Below, piece after piece: positions 2,438 to 35,606 of a stretch of DNA of 64,000 nucleotides. The number at the start of each line of letters is the position of its first letter. Within the stretch, counting starts at the first letter, position 1. Below the pieces are notes generated by a model. That model was not told the DNA's origin. It saw only the letters and a program-made list of their open reading frames with translations, and ran no database searches. Made by a program: the position numbers and the translations under genes. The DNA is from Synergistaceae bacterium (GTDB taxonomy: Bacteria; Synergistota; Synergistia; Synergistales; Aminobacteriaceae): positions 124,001-188,000 of the forward strand of contig JAFUYQ010000017.1 in the NCBI GenBank assembly GCA_017470485.1. The letters are read 5' to 3'.

Positions 2438-3608
2438 GATATTTTCTGAGTATTGAAGATTCTAATTCGGCCATGACGCTTTTTGCAGGGTAATCGAAAT
2501 TACAGCCGGCAGCTTTCTGATGTCCTCCGCCCCCGAACTCCCTTGCGAACTCGCCAGCTCCGAAGGGCGCGCCGTCCCTTGAACGAATGCTCAGGCGTAC
2601 AGCACCGTCAGGGTATTCAGTGGCGACAGCGATGAACTTCACCCCTCTGACTGACATGAACATCTGCGAGAGCCCTTCAGTTCCAGTAGTATCGGCACCA
2701 GTTTCGCGGAAGTCGTCCGCATAGATCATTGAGACTGCAAAAATACCGCCCTCCCCGAAAACTTTTACCCTTGACAGCGCACGCGCCCAAATCTGTAAAT
2801 CGGCCTGATTTTTATTCTGGCTTATCCTGTCGGTCATTAACGCCGGTTCGACTCCCAATTTGATTAACTCTGCGGCTATGTTGTGGGTAAGGGGCGAGGT
2901 GTTCGAGAAGGAAAAGCCCCCTGTGTCGGTGAATATGCCAGTGTAAAGGCTCTCGGCTATCCTCTGAGTAATCACCCAGTTGTCAGCGTCAAAGATTCTG
3001 TAGAGCATTTCGCAGGTTGACGAGGCTGAACCGTCAACGCAGTTCACACGGGCATAAAGCGAATTATCCTCATGATGGTCGATGTTGAGGGAGTTAATTC
3101 CCTTGCCGGCCTCGTAGCCTGAGACACTTCTAGTTTCGCTCGCGCAGTCGAGAAATACATAGAGTGTTCCTTGGCATACTCCCCACGACTGAAGTCGGGG
3201 GATTCTGGTATCTTCAAACTTGCCTGATTCCTCAGGTCTTACTAGTTCTCCTCCAATAGTTGATGCCCCAACTATTTTTTTATTATAGCATACTAACGGC
3301 TTATCCCAATGTCTAAAGACAGGGGCTTGCGCCGAAGAATTTCGGTCATCAATGAAGCTGAAATCCTCGCATGTCCTGAAGTCCCCGAAGTGCGGTAAGT
3401 ATCTGTAGCCTTCGGGCAATTTCTCGTCAGGGCTGAACCATGAGACATTTTTGCCGAGATTAGTTCCTGCCTCAAAGAGTGCTGCTGCCGAACCCATAGC
3501 ATCACCGTCAGATTTTCTGTGGGTGAAGATTGCCCAGCTTTTATTTTCTCTGAGGGTTTTTGAGGCAGCGAGTAGGTCAGAGGGATTAAAGTTCCTGTTC
3601 ATCATCAT
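2412..3608 (-). CDS. nrnA: DHH/DHHA1 oligoribonuclease/pAp phosphatase with an in-frame insert
   Basis: NanoRNase/pAp-phosphatase of the DHH family, which degrades 2-5 nt RNAs and 3'-phosphoadenosine 5'-phosphate. All four catalytic motifs are present: HRKSDGDAMGS, FLDCASETR, NIDHHED (the DHH signature) and GIFTDTGGFSF. The C-terminal DHHA1 domain has GGGGHQKAAG. I place the start at ATG 3608 because AGGGG lies about 9 bases upstream; the frame is open to 3635. This gives 398 residues, roughly 60-80 more than usual. The excess is a block at about residues 89-147, between FSFIDD and TLYVFLDC, whose DNA carries IS200/IS605-like end hairpins (3168-3344). It interrupts no catalytic motif and has no stop, so the enzyme may still work. 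It overlaps rbfA by 23 bases and truB by 26. Confidence 0.9.
   Translation of the reverse strand: MMMNRNFNPSDLLAASKTLRENKSWAIFTHRKSDGDAMGSAAALFEAGTNLGKNVSWFSPDEKLPEGYRYLPHFGDFRTCEDFSFIDDRNSSAQAPVFRHWDKPLVCYNKKIVGASTIGGELVRPEESGKFEDTRIPRLQSWGVCQGTLYVFLDCASETRSVSGYEAGKGINSLNIDHHEDNSLYARVNCVDGSASSTCEMLYRIFDADNWVITQRIAESLYTGIFTDTGGFSFSNTSPLTHNIAAELIKLGVEPALMTDRISQNKNQADLQIWARALSRVKVFGEGGIFAVSMIYADDFRETGADTTGTEGLSQMFMSVRGVKFIAVATEYPDGAVRLSIRSRDGAPFGAGEFAREFGGGGHQKAAGCNFDYPAKSVMAELESSILRKYHECLNTHQ
3168..3344 (-). mobile_element. IS200/IS605-end-like remnant inserted in frame in nrnA
   Basis: About 177 bp (59 codons) that normal NrnA proteins lack. Read on the minus strand it has CCGAA-ATTC-TTCGG at 3327-3340, then CCCTGTCTTTAGACATTGGG (3305-3324), an interrupted palindrome, and at the other end CCCCCGACTTCAGTCGTGGGG (3181-3201), a near-perfect palindrome. 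The second closely resembles the subterminal hairpin at the right end of IS200/IS605/IS1341 elements. The part between is more A/T-rich and includes a run of seven A. No tnpA or tnpB frame remains, so this is an internally deleted, MITE-like copy. The boundaries are inferred from where NrnA homology stops and resumes, and could shift by several codons. Confidence 0.65.
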
Positions 3609-33186: not shown

Positions 33187-33681
33187 ATGCCATTATTCAC
33201 GAAGAAAACACCTGCGCCCGTAGTTTTCCCTGCCGAGTTAAGCTCGCCTGTTGACGGAAACTTTGTGCCTATGTCCGAACTGAAGGACGAGGCTTTCGCC
33301 GGAGGAGCGTTGGGACAGTGCATCGGTGTCAAGCCCGAAAACGGAAACATCTGCGCACCCATTGACGGAGTCATCTCAGAGGTTACGGAGACGGCACATG
33401 CGGCAGTCGTCAAGGCCGGCGAAATCGAGGTACTGCTTCACGCCGGTATTCACACGGTGAACATGAAGGGCGAGGGCTTCAAGAACCACGTCAAACTCGA
33501 TCAGGTAGTCCGGCGCGGCGAGCCTGTACTCACGATGGACTTGTGGAAGGTCAGGAACGCAGGCTATGACGATACCGTTATCATGGCCGTGTCGAACACT
33601 AAGGACTTTGCGAAAGTCGAAGCCATTGTATCAGGCGGAAAGGTCAAAACAGGAGACGGCCTCATGAAGGTCAGCAAGTAA
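33187..33681 (+). CDS. PTS glucose-type EIIA (Crr-like) protein
   Basis: A 164-residue single-domain EIIA of the glucose class. The two active-site histidines are kept: His71 (TETAHAAV) and His85 (EVLLHAGIHTVNMKGEGF). Other EIIA blocks are LSSPVDGNFVPMSEL and ICAPIDGVISEV. The family passes phosphate from HPr to a sugar permease, and can also regulate transport and metabolism. No EIIB, EIIC, HPr or enzyme I is encoded here. It ends in the terminator-repeat at 33673-33720. Confidence 0.93.
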   Translation: MPLFTKKTPAPVVFPAELSSPVDGNFVPMSELKDEAFAGGALGQCIGVKPENGNICAPIDGVISEVTETAHAAVVKAGEIEVLLHAGIHTVNMKGEGFKNHVKLDQVVRRGEPVLTMDLWKVRNAGYDDTVIMAVSNTKDFAKVEAIVSGGKVKTGDGLMKVSK

Positions 33682-33720
33682 AAAATTCAGGGGGCATTGT
33701 GGAAGTCTGCAATGCTCCTT
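33673..33720 (+). repeat. 48-bp direct repeat, copy 1, with EIIA-gene terminator
   Basis: The repeat begins within the last codons of the EIIA gene (AGC AAG TAA), and includes a hairpin (GGGGCATTG, 33691-33699; CAATGCTCC, 33710-33718). About 41 of 48 bases match copy 2 at 35559-35606. The hairpin has few T after it, so termination may be leaky. Confidence 0.75.
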
Positions 33721-33746: not shown

Positions 33747-35567
33747 GTGTCAATAGTTTTCAAGTGCAAGATGTGCGGCGGCGACTTAGACATTCAAGAG
33801 GGAGCAACTATCGTTAAATGTCTCTACTGCGGAAGCAAGCAGACACTTCCCAAAATTGATGACGACAAACGAAGAAGCCTTTACAGCCGTGCAAATTATT
33901 TCCGTCAGAACGGCGATTTCGATAAGGCCGTTAAAATTTATGAGCAGATTTTGAGCGAGGACAACACTGACGCTGAAACTTACTGGTCGTTAGTTTTGTG
34001 CCGCTACGGTGTCGAATATGTCGAAGACCCTGCAACACATACTAGAGTCCCGACAGTCAACAGAACTCAGGCCATACCCGTAACCTCAGACGCTGATTAC
34101 AAAATGGCATTGAAGTATGCTGACGTTTCACAGTTTGCGGTATATCAGGCCGAAGCGAAAGCGATCGATAAAATTCAGCATGACATGCTCGAAATTTCAA
34201 GGCGCGAAAAACCTTTTGACGTTTTCATTTCGTACAAGGACAGCGACAGTAACGGCCAGCGTACTTTGGATTCGGTCTTGGCCGTTGACCTTTACGAAAA
34301 ACTCACTCAGGAGGGCTTCAAGGTCTTTTGTTCAAGAATTACCCTTGAGGACAAGATAGGACAGAAGTACGAGCCTTATATCTTCGCGGCACTCAATTCC
34401 GCTCCCGTAATGATAGCTCTGGGAACACGCCCCGAATATTTCAACGCCGTTTGGGTTCGCAACGAATGGAGCAGGTATTTGAATATGATTCACAACGGCG
34501 CTAAGAAAACGTTAATACCTGCTTTCAGGGACATGTCGCCCTACGAACTGCCCGAAGAATTTTCACACCTTCAGGCGCAGGACATGAGCAAGATCGGGTT
34601 CATGCAGGATTTGATTCGCGGTGTGAGGAAGTTAATCCGCCCCGAAACTCCCAAAGCCGAAACCGTCATAGTGAACGGCGGAACATCGAACGCTGCCCCC
34701 TTGCTCAAACGTGCGTCTATGTTCATAGCAGAGGGAGATTTTGAGAATGCAGAGGCTTACTGCGAGAGAGTGCTTGACATTGATCCCGAAAACGGAACGG
34801 CCTATCTCGGCAAGTTAATGGCTAAAAAACGCTTGAAGCGTCGCAGGGATTTCGCGAATTTACCGGAGCCTTTTGACAAAGATAATGACTACCAAAGGTT
34901 CGTGCGTTATGGGAATGCTCAAATTATCGCGGAACTTAAGGGGTATGTCGCGGCCATTAAAGACAGAATCAAGGAACAGGCTCGCATTGAGGCACAGCGT
35001 GAAGCAGAGCAAGCAGAACAAGCAAAAAAGAGAAGAAAACGTAACATCATACTTTCCGCCGCCGTTGCCGCCGTTATCATAATCCCTTTGCTCTGGATTG
35101 GGCATATTCGCTCCTCATTCATTGACATTTGCAGAAATGGAACTGAACAAGAAATCATCAATGCCATTAGTGGAATGGTAAATACTAATGAGGCACTGAG
35201 AATTACCGCAGGTCGCGGCAAAACAGAGGCTATGAAAGCACTGATTAAGGCCGGGGCTGAGGTCAACGCTAAGAACTATTACGGCATTACTGCGCTGATG
35301 AGGGCTGCAGAGAACGGCAACGCGGAAGCCGTAAAGGTGTTGCTTAACGCCGGGGCTGATGTAAACGCTAAGGACAATAACGTCGAGACTGCGCTGATAA
35401 AGGCTGTATGGAGAGGCAACGCGGAAGCCATAAAGGTACTGCTTAACGCTGGGGCTGATGTCAACATCAGGGATAAATACGGCAAAAGGGCAGTCGATTA
35501 CGCACGAGATAATTATTTGTTCCAAGGCACAAACGTTCTGAAACGACTCGAGCAGTTAAGCAAGTAA
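33747..35567 (+). CDS. Zinc ribbon-TPR-TIR-transmembrane-ankyrin protein
   Basis: A 606-residue multidomain protein starting at GTG 33747 after CGGAGG. Residues 7-28 are a zinc ribbon (Cys 7, 10, 25, 28). Residues 42-85 form a TPR-like helical pair (YFRQNGDFDKAVKIYEQIL). Residues 155-300 are a TIR domain: KPFDVFISYKDSDSNG, then GFKVFCSRITLEDKIG, with Glu209 (QKYEPYIF) where TIR NAD hydrolases have their catalytic Glu. Residues 318-350 are a second TPR-like pair, 400-430 a charged coil, 433-451 a membrane helix, and 484-580 three ankyrin repeats ending NAGADVNAKDN. Similar zinc ribbon-TPR-TIR proteins occur in gut bacteria; the membrane-ankyrin tail is the unusual part. Its role is unknown: immunity, signalling or host interaction are possible. 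Confidence 0.85.
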   Translation: MSIVFKCKMCGGDLDIQEGATIVKCLYCGSKQTLPKIDDDKRRSLYSRANYFRQNGDFDKAVKIYEQILSEDNTDAETYWSLVLCRYGVEYVEDPATHTRVPTVNRTQAIPVTSDADYKMALKYADVSQFAVYQAEAKAIDKIQHDMLEISRREKPFDVFISYKDSDSNGQRTLDSVLAVDLYEKLTQEGFKVFCSRITLEDKIGQKYEPYIFAALNSAPVMIALGTRPEYFNAVWVRNEWSRYLNMIHNGAKKTLIPAFRDMSPYELPEEFSHLQAQDMSKIGFMQDLIRGVRKLIRPETPKAETVIVNGGTSNAAPLLKRASMFIAEGDFENAEAYCERVLDIDPENGTAYLGKLMAKKRLKRRRDFANLPEPFDKDNDYQRFVRYGNAQIIAELKGYVAAIKDRIKEQARIEAQREAEQAEQAKKRRKRNIILSAAVAAVIIIPLLWIGHIRSSFIDICRNGTEQEIINAISGMVNTNEALRITAGRGKTEAMKALIKAGAEVNAKNYYGITALMRAAENGNAEAVKVLLNAGADVNAKDNNVETALIKAVWRGNAEAIKVLLNAGADVNIRDKYGKRAVDYARDNYLFQGTNVLKRLEQLSK

Positions 35568-35606
35568 AAAATATTAGGGGCATTGTGCGAGTCGGCAATG
35601 CTCCTT
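35559..35606 (+). repeat. 48-bp direct repeat, copy 2, with TIR-gene terminator
   Basis: It again starts at AGC AAG TAA, the end of the TIR gene, and carries the hairpin GGGGCATTG/CAATGCTCC followed by TTTTATT. It sits between the convergent TIR and ricT genes. Same length as copy 1, with about seven mismatches, clustered after the stop codon and in the loop. Confidence 0.75.

Follow-up and report, generated by a model that had tools for sequence, protein, structure and literature searches.

The protein encoded at positions 33747-35567 of the window, by which we mean the whole 64,000-nucleotide stretch of Synergistaceae DNA that was analysed, belongs to a family in which an inner chassis (zinc ribbon, TPR, TIR and a second TPR unit) is constant and the outer half, beyond the membrane helix, is exchanged. 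Its own outer half consists of ankyrin repeats. We regard the family as TIR effector proteins in membrane-receptor form; to our knowledge, bacterial TIR defence proteins are mostly cytosolic. The window protein may be a membrane receptor with a cytosolic TIR NADase and an exchangeable extracytoplasmic sensor, which would respond to phage adsorption or to another envelope threat, a reading that in our judgement could go either way.

Domain layout of the window protein

A single, complete open reading frame with a GTG start encodes 606 amino acids (Table 1), arranged in the order zinc ribbon, TPR, TIR, TPR, membrane helix and ankyrin. The zinc ribbon follows the motif C7-x2-C10 ... C25-x2-C28, and its four cysteines are invariant in a 42-row alignment. 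Two TPR models from Pfam matched above their cut-offs, TPR_14 at residues 44-79 and TPR_1 at residues 321-349, and the TIR and ankyrin regions were recognized by TIR_2 (residues 159-282, E 1.5e-10) and Ank_2 (residues 487-576, E 8e-34). The mean hydropathy of the membrane helix (residues 434-452) is 2.65. The AlphaFold model of the whole chain, calculated with the 42-row alignment, contains all of these elements, with the helix pairs of the tail forming tandem ankyrin units; its mean pLDDT of 86.7 and pTM of 0.47 indicate that the domains are modelled well, but their mutual placing is not.

An earlier interpretation made from the letters alone (the sequence-only reading) had placed a zinc ribbon, TPR, TIR, a membrane helix and ankyrins in one chain, and the open reading frame, Pfam and AlphaFold confirm this. 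It had also raised the doubt that the ankyrin-membrane tail might be due to frame errors. This doubt is removed by a 592-residue orthologue from the assembly of another species (G009; loci L033 and L081), which keeps the same complete layout including the ankyrins and thereby rules out both a frame error and an assembly chimera. The orthologues in two further assemblies, G002 and G023, are incomplete, as they run into the ends of short contigs.

Table 1. Positions of the features described in the text, with the strand and the basis of each assignment
Feature	Sequence	Positions	Strand	Basis
Terminator-like 28-base palindrome, upstream of the TIR gene, past the EIIA gene	window	33691-33718	+	
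Complete gene, zinc ribbon-TPR-TIR-TPR-TM-ankyrin	window	33747-35567	+	ORF, Pfam, orthologue with equal layout
N-terminal zinc ribbon, C7/C10/C25/C28	window	33756-33851	+	cysteine pattern, alignment
First TPR, aa 44-79	window	33876-33983	+	Pfam
TIR domain, aa 155-297	window	34209-34637	+	Pfam, fold match to known TIRs
Glu209 codon, invariant, off the catalytic position	window	34371-34373	+	alignment, model
Glu240 codon, candidate catalytic Glu, helix aC	window	34464-34466	+	alignment, model
Second TPR unit, aa 316-360, belongs to the conserved chassis	window	34692-34826	+	Pfam, model
Long helix ending KKRRKRN directly before the membrane helix (inside-positive)	window	34917-35045	+	model, charge count
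Single membrane helix, aa 434-452	window	35046-35102	+	hydropathy
Ankyrin tail, aa 477-594	window	35175-35528	+	Pfam, homology
Second palindrome copy, downstream of the TIR gene	window	35577-35604	+	
Intact DGR (VR, bAvd-like gene, TR, RT); target, the DUF6273 tail of a zinc ribbon-TPR-TIR-TM protein	L084	2683-4761		

TIR fold and the candidate catalytic glutamate

Conservation along the family chain is highest in the TIR. A model of this domain alone, of middling confidence (pLDDT 76), matched the TIRs of flax L6, RPS4, RUN1, SPARTA, AbTir and SARM1 in the PDB at Z 10-13, with SARM1 561-700 corresponding to residues 6-144 of the model. Trp236 is invariant in the relatives, and E209 and E240 are each present in 54/54 family TIRs, so that conservation alone cannot choose between the two glutamates and position decides for Glu240. 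In the AlphaFold model, Glu209 lies within YEPYIF and opens helix aB (209-218) after the BB loop, whereas Glu240 lies in helix aC (235-249), four residues past Trp236 (W236-xxx-E240), a spacing that we take to be that of the catalytic Glu642 of SARM1.

We built a profile from the 54 family TIRs and used it to search the PDB, where it matched a Toll-like receptor TIR, weakly a flax L7 TIR, and nothing else. E240 aligns with the glutamate of WCQYEL in the Toll-like receptor TIR (E 2.5e-5) and with that of WCLMEL in the L7 TIR (E 1.1, weak on its own), neither of which has a glutamate in the column of Glu209; in 7vu8, the residue aligned with E240 is the catalytic-position glutamate. Glu209, which the sequence-only reading had put at the catalytic position, was ruled out as the catalytic residue by its location in helix aB and by this alignment. 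What stands of that claim is a TIR with an intact candidate catalytic glutamate (as seen from TIR_2 and the fold matches), the residue being Glu240, which occupies the position equivalent to the catalytic glutamate of plant and animal TIR NADases. According to a review, the catalytic glutamate is required for NADase activity in all prokaryotic TIRs examined (PMC7282519). The window protein is a likely TIR NADase, with NAD cleavage predicted from sequence and model.

Membrane orientation and exchange of the outer tail

A membrane helix follows the TIR in 61 of the 70 complete family members, 59 of which have exactly one and 2 more than one; 9 have none. The helix of the window protein is preceded by 15 residues with 6 K/R and followed by 2 K/R, and among the 59 single-helix relatives the excess of K/R is on the N side in 58, equal in 1 and reversed in none. 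By the positive-inside rule, an N-side excess places the tail outside the membrane.

The outer tails themselves are diverse. Besides TPR, Pfam searches of 71 family tails detected DUF6273 in 47, RCC1 in 5, BspA-type LRR in 4, ankyrin in 2 and an M23 peptidase in 1, and the tail of locus L130 contains MORN-like repeats, judged by eye. The two ankyrin tails are those of the window protein and its orthologue. In L121 (7995-10457), the TIR is followed by a helix at 536 and by BspA LRR at 651-773; leucine-rich repeats of the same type past the membrane helix were also observed in L098 (2998-5580). Known proteins carry M23 peptidase and BspA LRR outside the cytoplasm, and DUF6273 likewise counts as a domain of extracytoplasmic type. 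The addition of a membrane-ankyrin part, described as less usual in the sequence-only reading, is therefore unusual with respect to the ankyrins (2/71 tails), but not with respect to the membrane helix (61/70 relatives): the helix is the family rule and the ankyrin tail a local graft.

The window tail is most similar to an ankyrin protein of its own genus that is secreted (L034, 51% identity), in which a signal peptide is followed by FLDLCRNGTAQEIINA, the counterpart in the window protein being FIDICRNGTEQEIINA. Others among its closest homologues are likewise secreted and carry signal peptides, and the genus has both secreted and cytosolic ankyrin proteins. Proteins of this kind are abundant in the window genus (genomes G000-G036), with at least 35 in some genome among the matches listed, many of them with signal peptides. 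The charge bias, the tail domains of the relatives and the secreted ankyrin homologues in the genus together point to an outward orientation of the ankyrins, a question on which the sequence-only reading had taken no side. A cytosolic tail, with the helix as a peripheral or reverse-oriented anchor and the ankyrins docking an effector or inhibitor beside the TIR, would suit the commonly cytosolic location of ankyrins and the several genus paralogues without a signal, but it runs against both the direction of the charges, in the window protein as in its relatives, and the secretion of the closest homologues of the tail, and we consider it quite improbable.

A diversity-generating retroelement targets the tail in one relative

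L084, from an uncultured Eubacterium MAG (CAMFQI010000115.1), contains an intact diversity-generating retroelement (DGR; Table 1). The 120-base VR (2683-2802) lies inside the DUF6273 tail of the TIR protein and the TR copy is located at 3390-3509; the two differ at 22 positions, at all of which (22/22) the template base is A. Since A accounts for 35 of the 120 template bases, the chance of such an outcome is about 2e-12. The bAvd-like gene scored 36.2 bits in Pfam, just below the cut-off of 40, and the reverse transcriptase (RT) scored 72 bits against RVT_1 and has the motifs SRYMDD and LGNQTSQ. In phage DGR target proteins, DUF6273 is hypermutated and was modelled with a C-type-lectin-like fold (PMC10743442). 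The hypermutation in L084 is strong evidence that the outer tail of the chassis serves as a recognition domain.

Among 20 more DGR-type RT loci surveyed in the order of L084, one of them cut by a contig end, we found a few DUF6273 genes and no TIR chassis; this rules out a common DGR link of the chassis and indicates that the intact DGR-TIR link is a rare one. Just downstream of the TIR gene in L085 (10559-10747), L087 (11776-12531) and L142 (11718-11867), decayed bAvd or RT fragments suggest that the link may formerly have been commoner. The window protein is not a DGR target of this type, as its tail has no DUF6273. A search of the entire window genome with the DUF6273 model returned nothing, but its controls stayed silent as well, so that this is no evidence of absence. 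The L084 element is relevant to the window protein because it hints that the tail of the chassis binds something variable. A search of the window genome with the L084 RT gave a single match, on contig C13, namely a DGR-like RT with a DIGNQTSQ motif (L234 832-2121; G000 C13:50180-51148) that is unlinked to the TIR gene.

Distribution and origin of the chassis

The window genome (G000, contig C10) is that of a rumen-type gut bacterium, and its nearest named relatives are Synergistaceae MAGs from ruminants. Within the phylum, matches were found in 15 of 188 genomes and 8 of 63 genera, and a wider scan, with one genome per species, yielded at least 530 confirmed relatives. The best 80 of these at least 530 are nearly all gut Clostridia, with 65-72% identity over 300 aa, in agreement with the statement of the sequence-only reading that zinc ribbon-TPR-TIR proteins are known in gut bacteria; other Synergistaceae with the whole chassis show 49-58% identity to the window protein. 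The window protein has the features that define the chassis family, i.e. a high-identity zinc ribbon-TPR-TIR-TPR part and then one N-in membrane helix.

In the maximum-likelihood tree, the window clade is nested in Bacillota (100/97) and the other Synergistota form a separate clade (100/99); the bootstrap of the tree had not fully settled. The position within Bacillota indicates that the chassis came to the window lineage from gut Clostridia, and inheritance within Synergistaceae is ruled out by the tree. The GC content of the TIR gene resembles that of the surrounding DNA, so the transfer was not very recent. The simplest history would be that a native exported ankyrin domain replaced the clostridial tail after the transfer of the chassis. 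An origin from phages or plasmids was also considered, and the chassis had no match in 50,697 phage records or 72,556 plasmid records. In the same genus, we observed a protein with the zinc ribbon and second TPR unit without the TIR (L070 1054-1818; G016) and another with the TPR unit and Sel1 repeats (L072; G036), both of which we regard as shuffled chassis modules.

The gut habitat of nearly all relatives found and the nature of the family tails (DUF6273/C-lectin, BspA LRR and RCC1 are typical binding domains) would also fit a role in adhesion or surface display, with a tail that binds host glycans, other cells or substrates and an inner half that only anchors it or reports attachment. An anchor, however, would have no need of invariance at a TIR active-site residue or of a chassis that is 65-72% identical across phyla, and we find such a role unlikely.

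Genomic neighbourhood and the SPFH operon

On one side of the window gene lie the EIIA gene (33187-33681), asd and hom, and on the other a PSP1-family gene. The window gene thus stands alone among housekeeping genes: no defence gene flanks it, and no Thoeris partner (ThsA-type or other effector) was found beside it. In G023, the TIR gene is next to asd, with no EIIA gene between them. The 28-base palindrome occurs in only two copies in the genome, which flank the TIR gene, and the genes preceding each copy both end in AGCAAGTAAAAAAT; palindrome and shared ends are possibly the scar of an insertion or duplication.

Clostridial TIR genes recurrently lie downstream of an SPFH (Band 7) gene and of a gene for a protein of ~233 aa with about four membrane helices. 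The SPFH protein, which often has zinc ribbons, is always encoded on the same strand as the TIR gene. Of the 57 loci where the upstream sequence extends to 3.5 kb or more, 41 had SPFH and 37 had SPFH together with the four-helix protein. In other Synergistaceae, the gene order is TIR-SPFH-four-helix. Both genes are absent next to the window gene; contig C1 of the window genome carries an SPFH-four-helix pair that is unlinked to the TIR gene. Most genomes of the window genus have SPFH proteins and no TIR gene, which rules out SPFH as a specific marker there. A search for defence genes around the homologues, proposed in the sequence-only reading, returned none that recurs beside family TIR genes, nor any recurring NAD-related effector; the recurring partners are the SPFH and four-helix membrane proteins. 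One IMG/VR contig classed as viral carries the entire SPFH, four-helix and TIR set (L158 3421-8466) and is possibly host DNA or a provirus.

The SPFH partner hints at clustering in membrane microdomains, and this keeps alive an explanation in which the family, SPFH and PspA-type repair proteins form an envelope-stress scaffold that organises microdomains, with the TIR as a protein-protein module or the source of a stress signal that serves neither killing nor defence. The frequency of SPFH and four-helix genes at the TIR loci fits such a scaffold, as do the unlinked pair in the window genome, the SPFH proteins without a TIR gene in most genomes of the genus, and a cluster of PspA/IM30, zinc ribbon and a second SPFH gene (L179 790-3595; G082 C13) that lies within a few kb of an operon with the order TIR-SPFH-four-helix. 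It fits less well with a TIR that is the best conserved part of the chain and has invariant Trp236 and Glu240, with DGR hypermutation of the tail, which suits ligand capture and not generic stress sensing, and with a window gene unlinked to SPFH; on balance we think it possible, if rather doubtful.

Comparison with known systems

PADLOC and NCBIfam defence models matched the TIR weakly. Against the NCBIfam model of Thoeris type III ThcB4, the window protein scored 35.5 bits and L084 29.9 bits, below the cut-off of 220. Thoeris ThsB, the candidate PDC-S66 and ThcB4 share with the family a TIR with a glutamate at the catalytic position, but the ThcB4 model, which covers aa 108-243, has no outer tail, whereas the window protein has one and lacks a Thoeris partner. 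SARM1, plant TIR NADases, SPARTA and AbTir share the TIR fold and the glutamate in helix aC after the tryptophan; they differ in their activating domains (SAM, NLR and Argonaute) and in having no such membrane helix. Four other proteins of the window genome (L236, L238, L239 and L240, on C23, C15, C1 and C3) have a TIR and then a membrane helix, with Sel1-type repeats in three, but the TIR is N-terminal and of another subfamily, with no zinc ribbon or TPR ahead of it and no ankyrins.

C-lectin sensors under DGR hypermutation have been described together with immune effectors, TIR among them, in Thiohalocapsa PB-PSB1 (PMC10907252) and in VMAP/iSTAND systems (PMC7159879), and in STAND and MoxR-vWA conflict systems, sensors diversified by DGRs are paired with TIR or CHAT effectors (PMC10907252, PMC7159879). 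Those systems are built on a STAND or MoxR-vWA NTPase, whereas in the chassis family no NTPase was seen and a zinc ribbon-TPR-TIR chassis is joined by one membrane helix to a DUF6273 domain outside; the window copy differs further in having no DGR and an ankyrin tail. With animal Toll-like receptors, the family shares an outer recognition domain (LRR in L121 and L098), one membrane helix and a cytosolic TIR, but the chain order is reversed, the TIR being N-terminal to the helix, so the likeness is one of design and not of membership. In a literature search on TIR proteins in combination with SPFH proteins, ankyrins, zinc ribbons or DGRs, which covered a minority of the subscription journals, we came across no description of the chassis, its SPFH operon or its DGR link.

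Proposed function and significance

Computation established the domain architecture, the TIR fold with Glu240 as candidate catalytic residue, the charge bias, the exchange of tails, the lateral transfer and, in one relative, hypermutation of the tail by a DGR. For catalysis, clustering, the ligand and a role in defence, we infer the following course of events. The window protein would act as a single-pass receptor that faces the cytosol with its zinc ribbon, TPRs and TIR and exposes the ankyrin tail to the periplasm. When a phage adsorbs or the envelope is threatened in some other way, the outer tail would sense binding or damage and the inner halves would cluster, an SPFH partner possibly promoting clustering in membrane microdomains; the clustered TIRs would self-associate and cleave NAD+, with Glu240 as the catalytic residue, and the outcome would be NAD depletion or an ADPR-type signal.

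For the family as a whole, we tentatively propose a bacterial counterpart of Toll receptors, in which a TIR NADase chassis of gut Clostridia and Synergistaceae would carry an outer domain that is exchanged (C-lectin, LRR, RCC1 or ankyrin) and that a DGR hypermutates in some lineages, and would respond to phage or envelope attack by SPFH-clustered NAD+ cleavage. The layout is that of a cell-surface immune receptor, with a constant cytosolic TIR, one helix and an exchangeable sensor that is rewritten by a retroelement in at least one species. If the proposal is true, gut bacteria would sense outside threats by TIR receptors whose specificity changes as tails are swapped and hypermutated in a targeted way, and hundreds of genomes would supply, with their outer tails, a list of testable ligand-binding domains.
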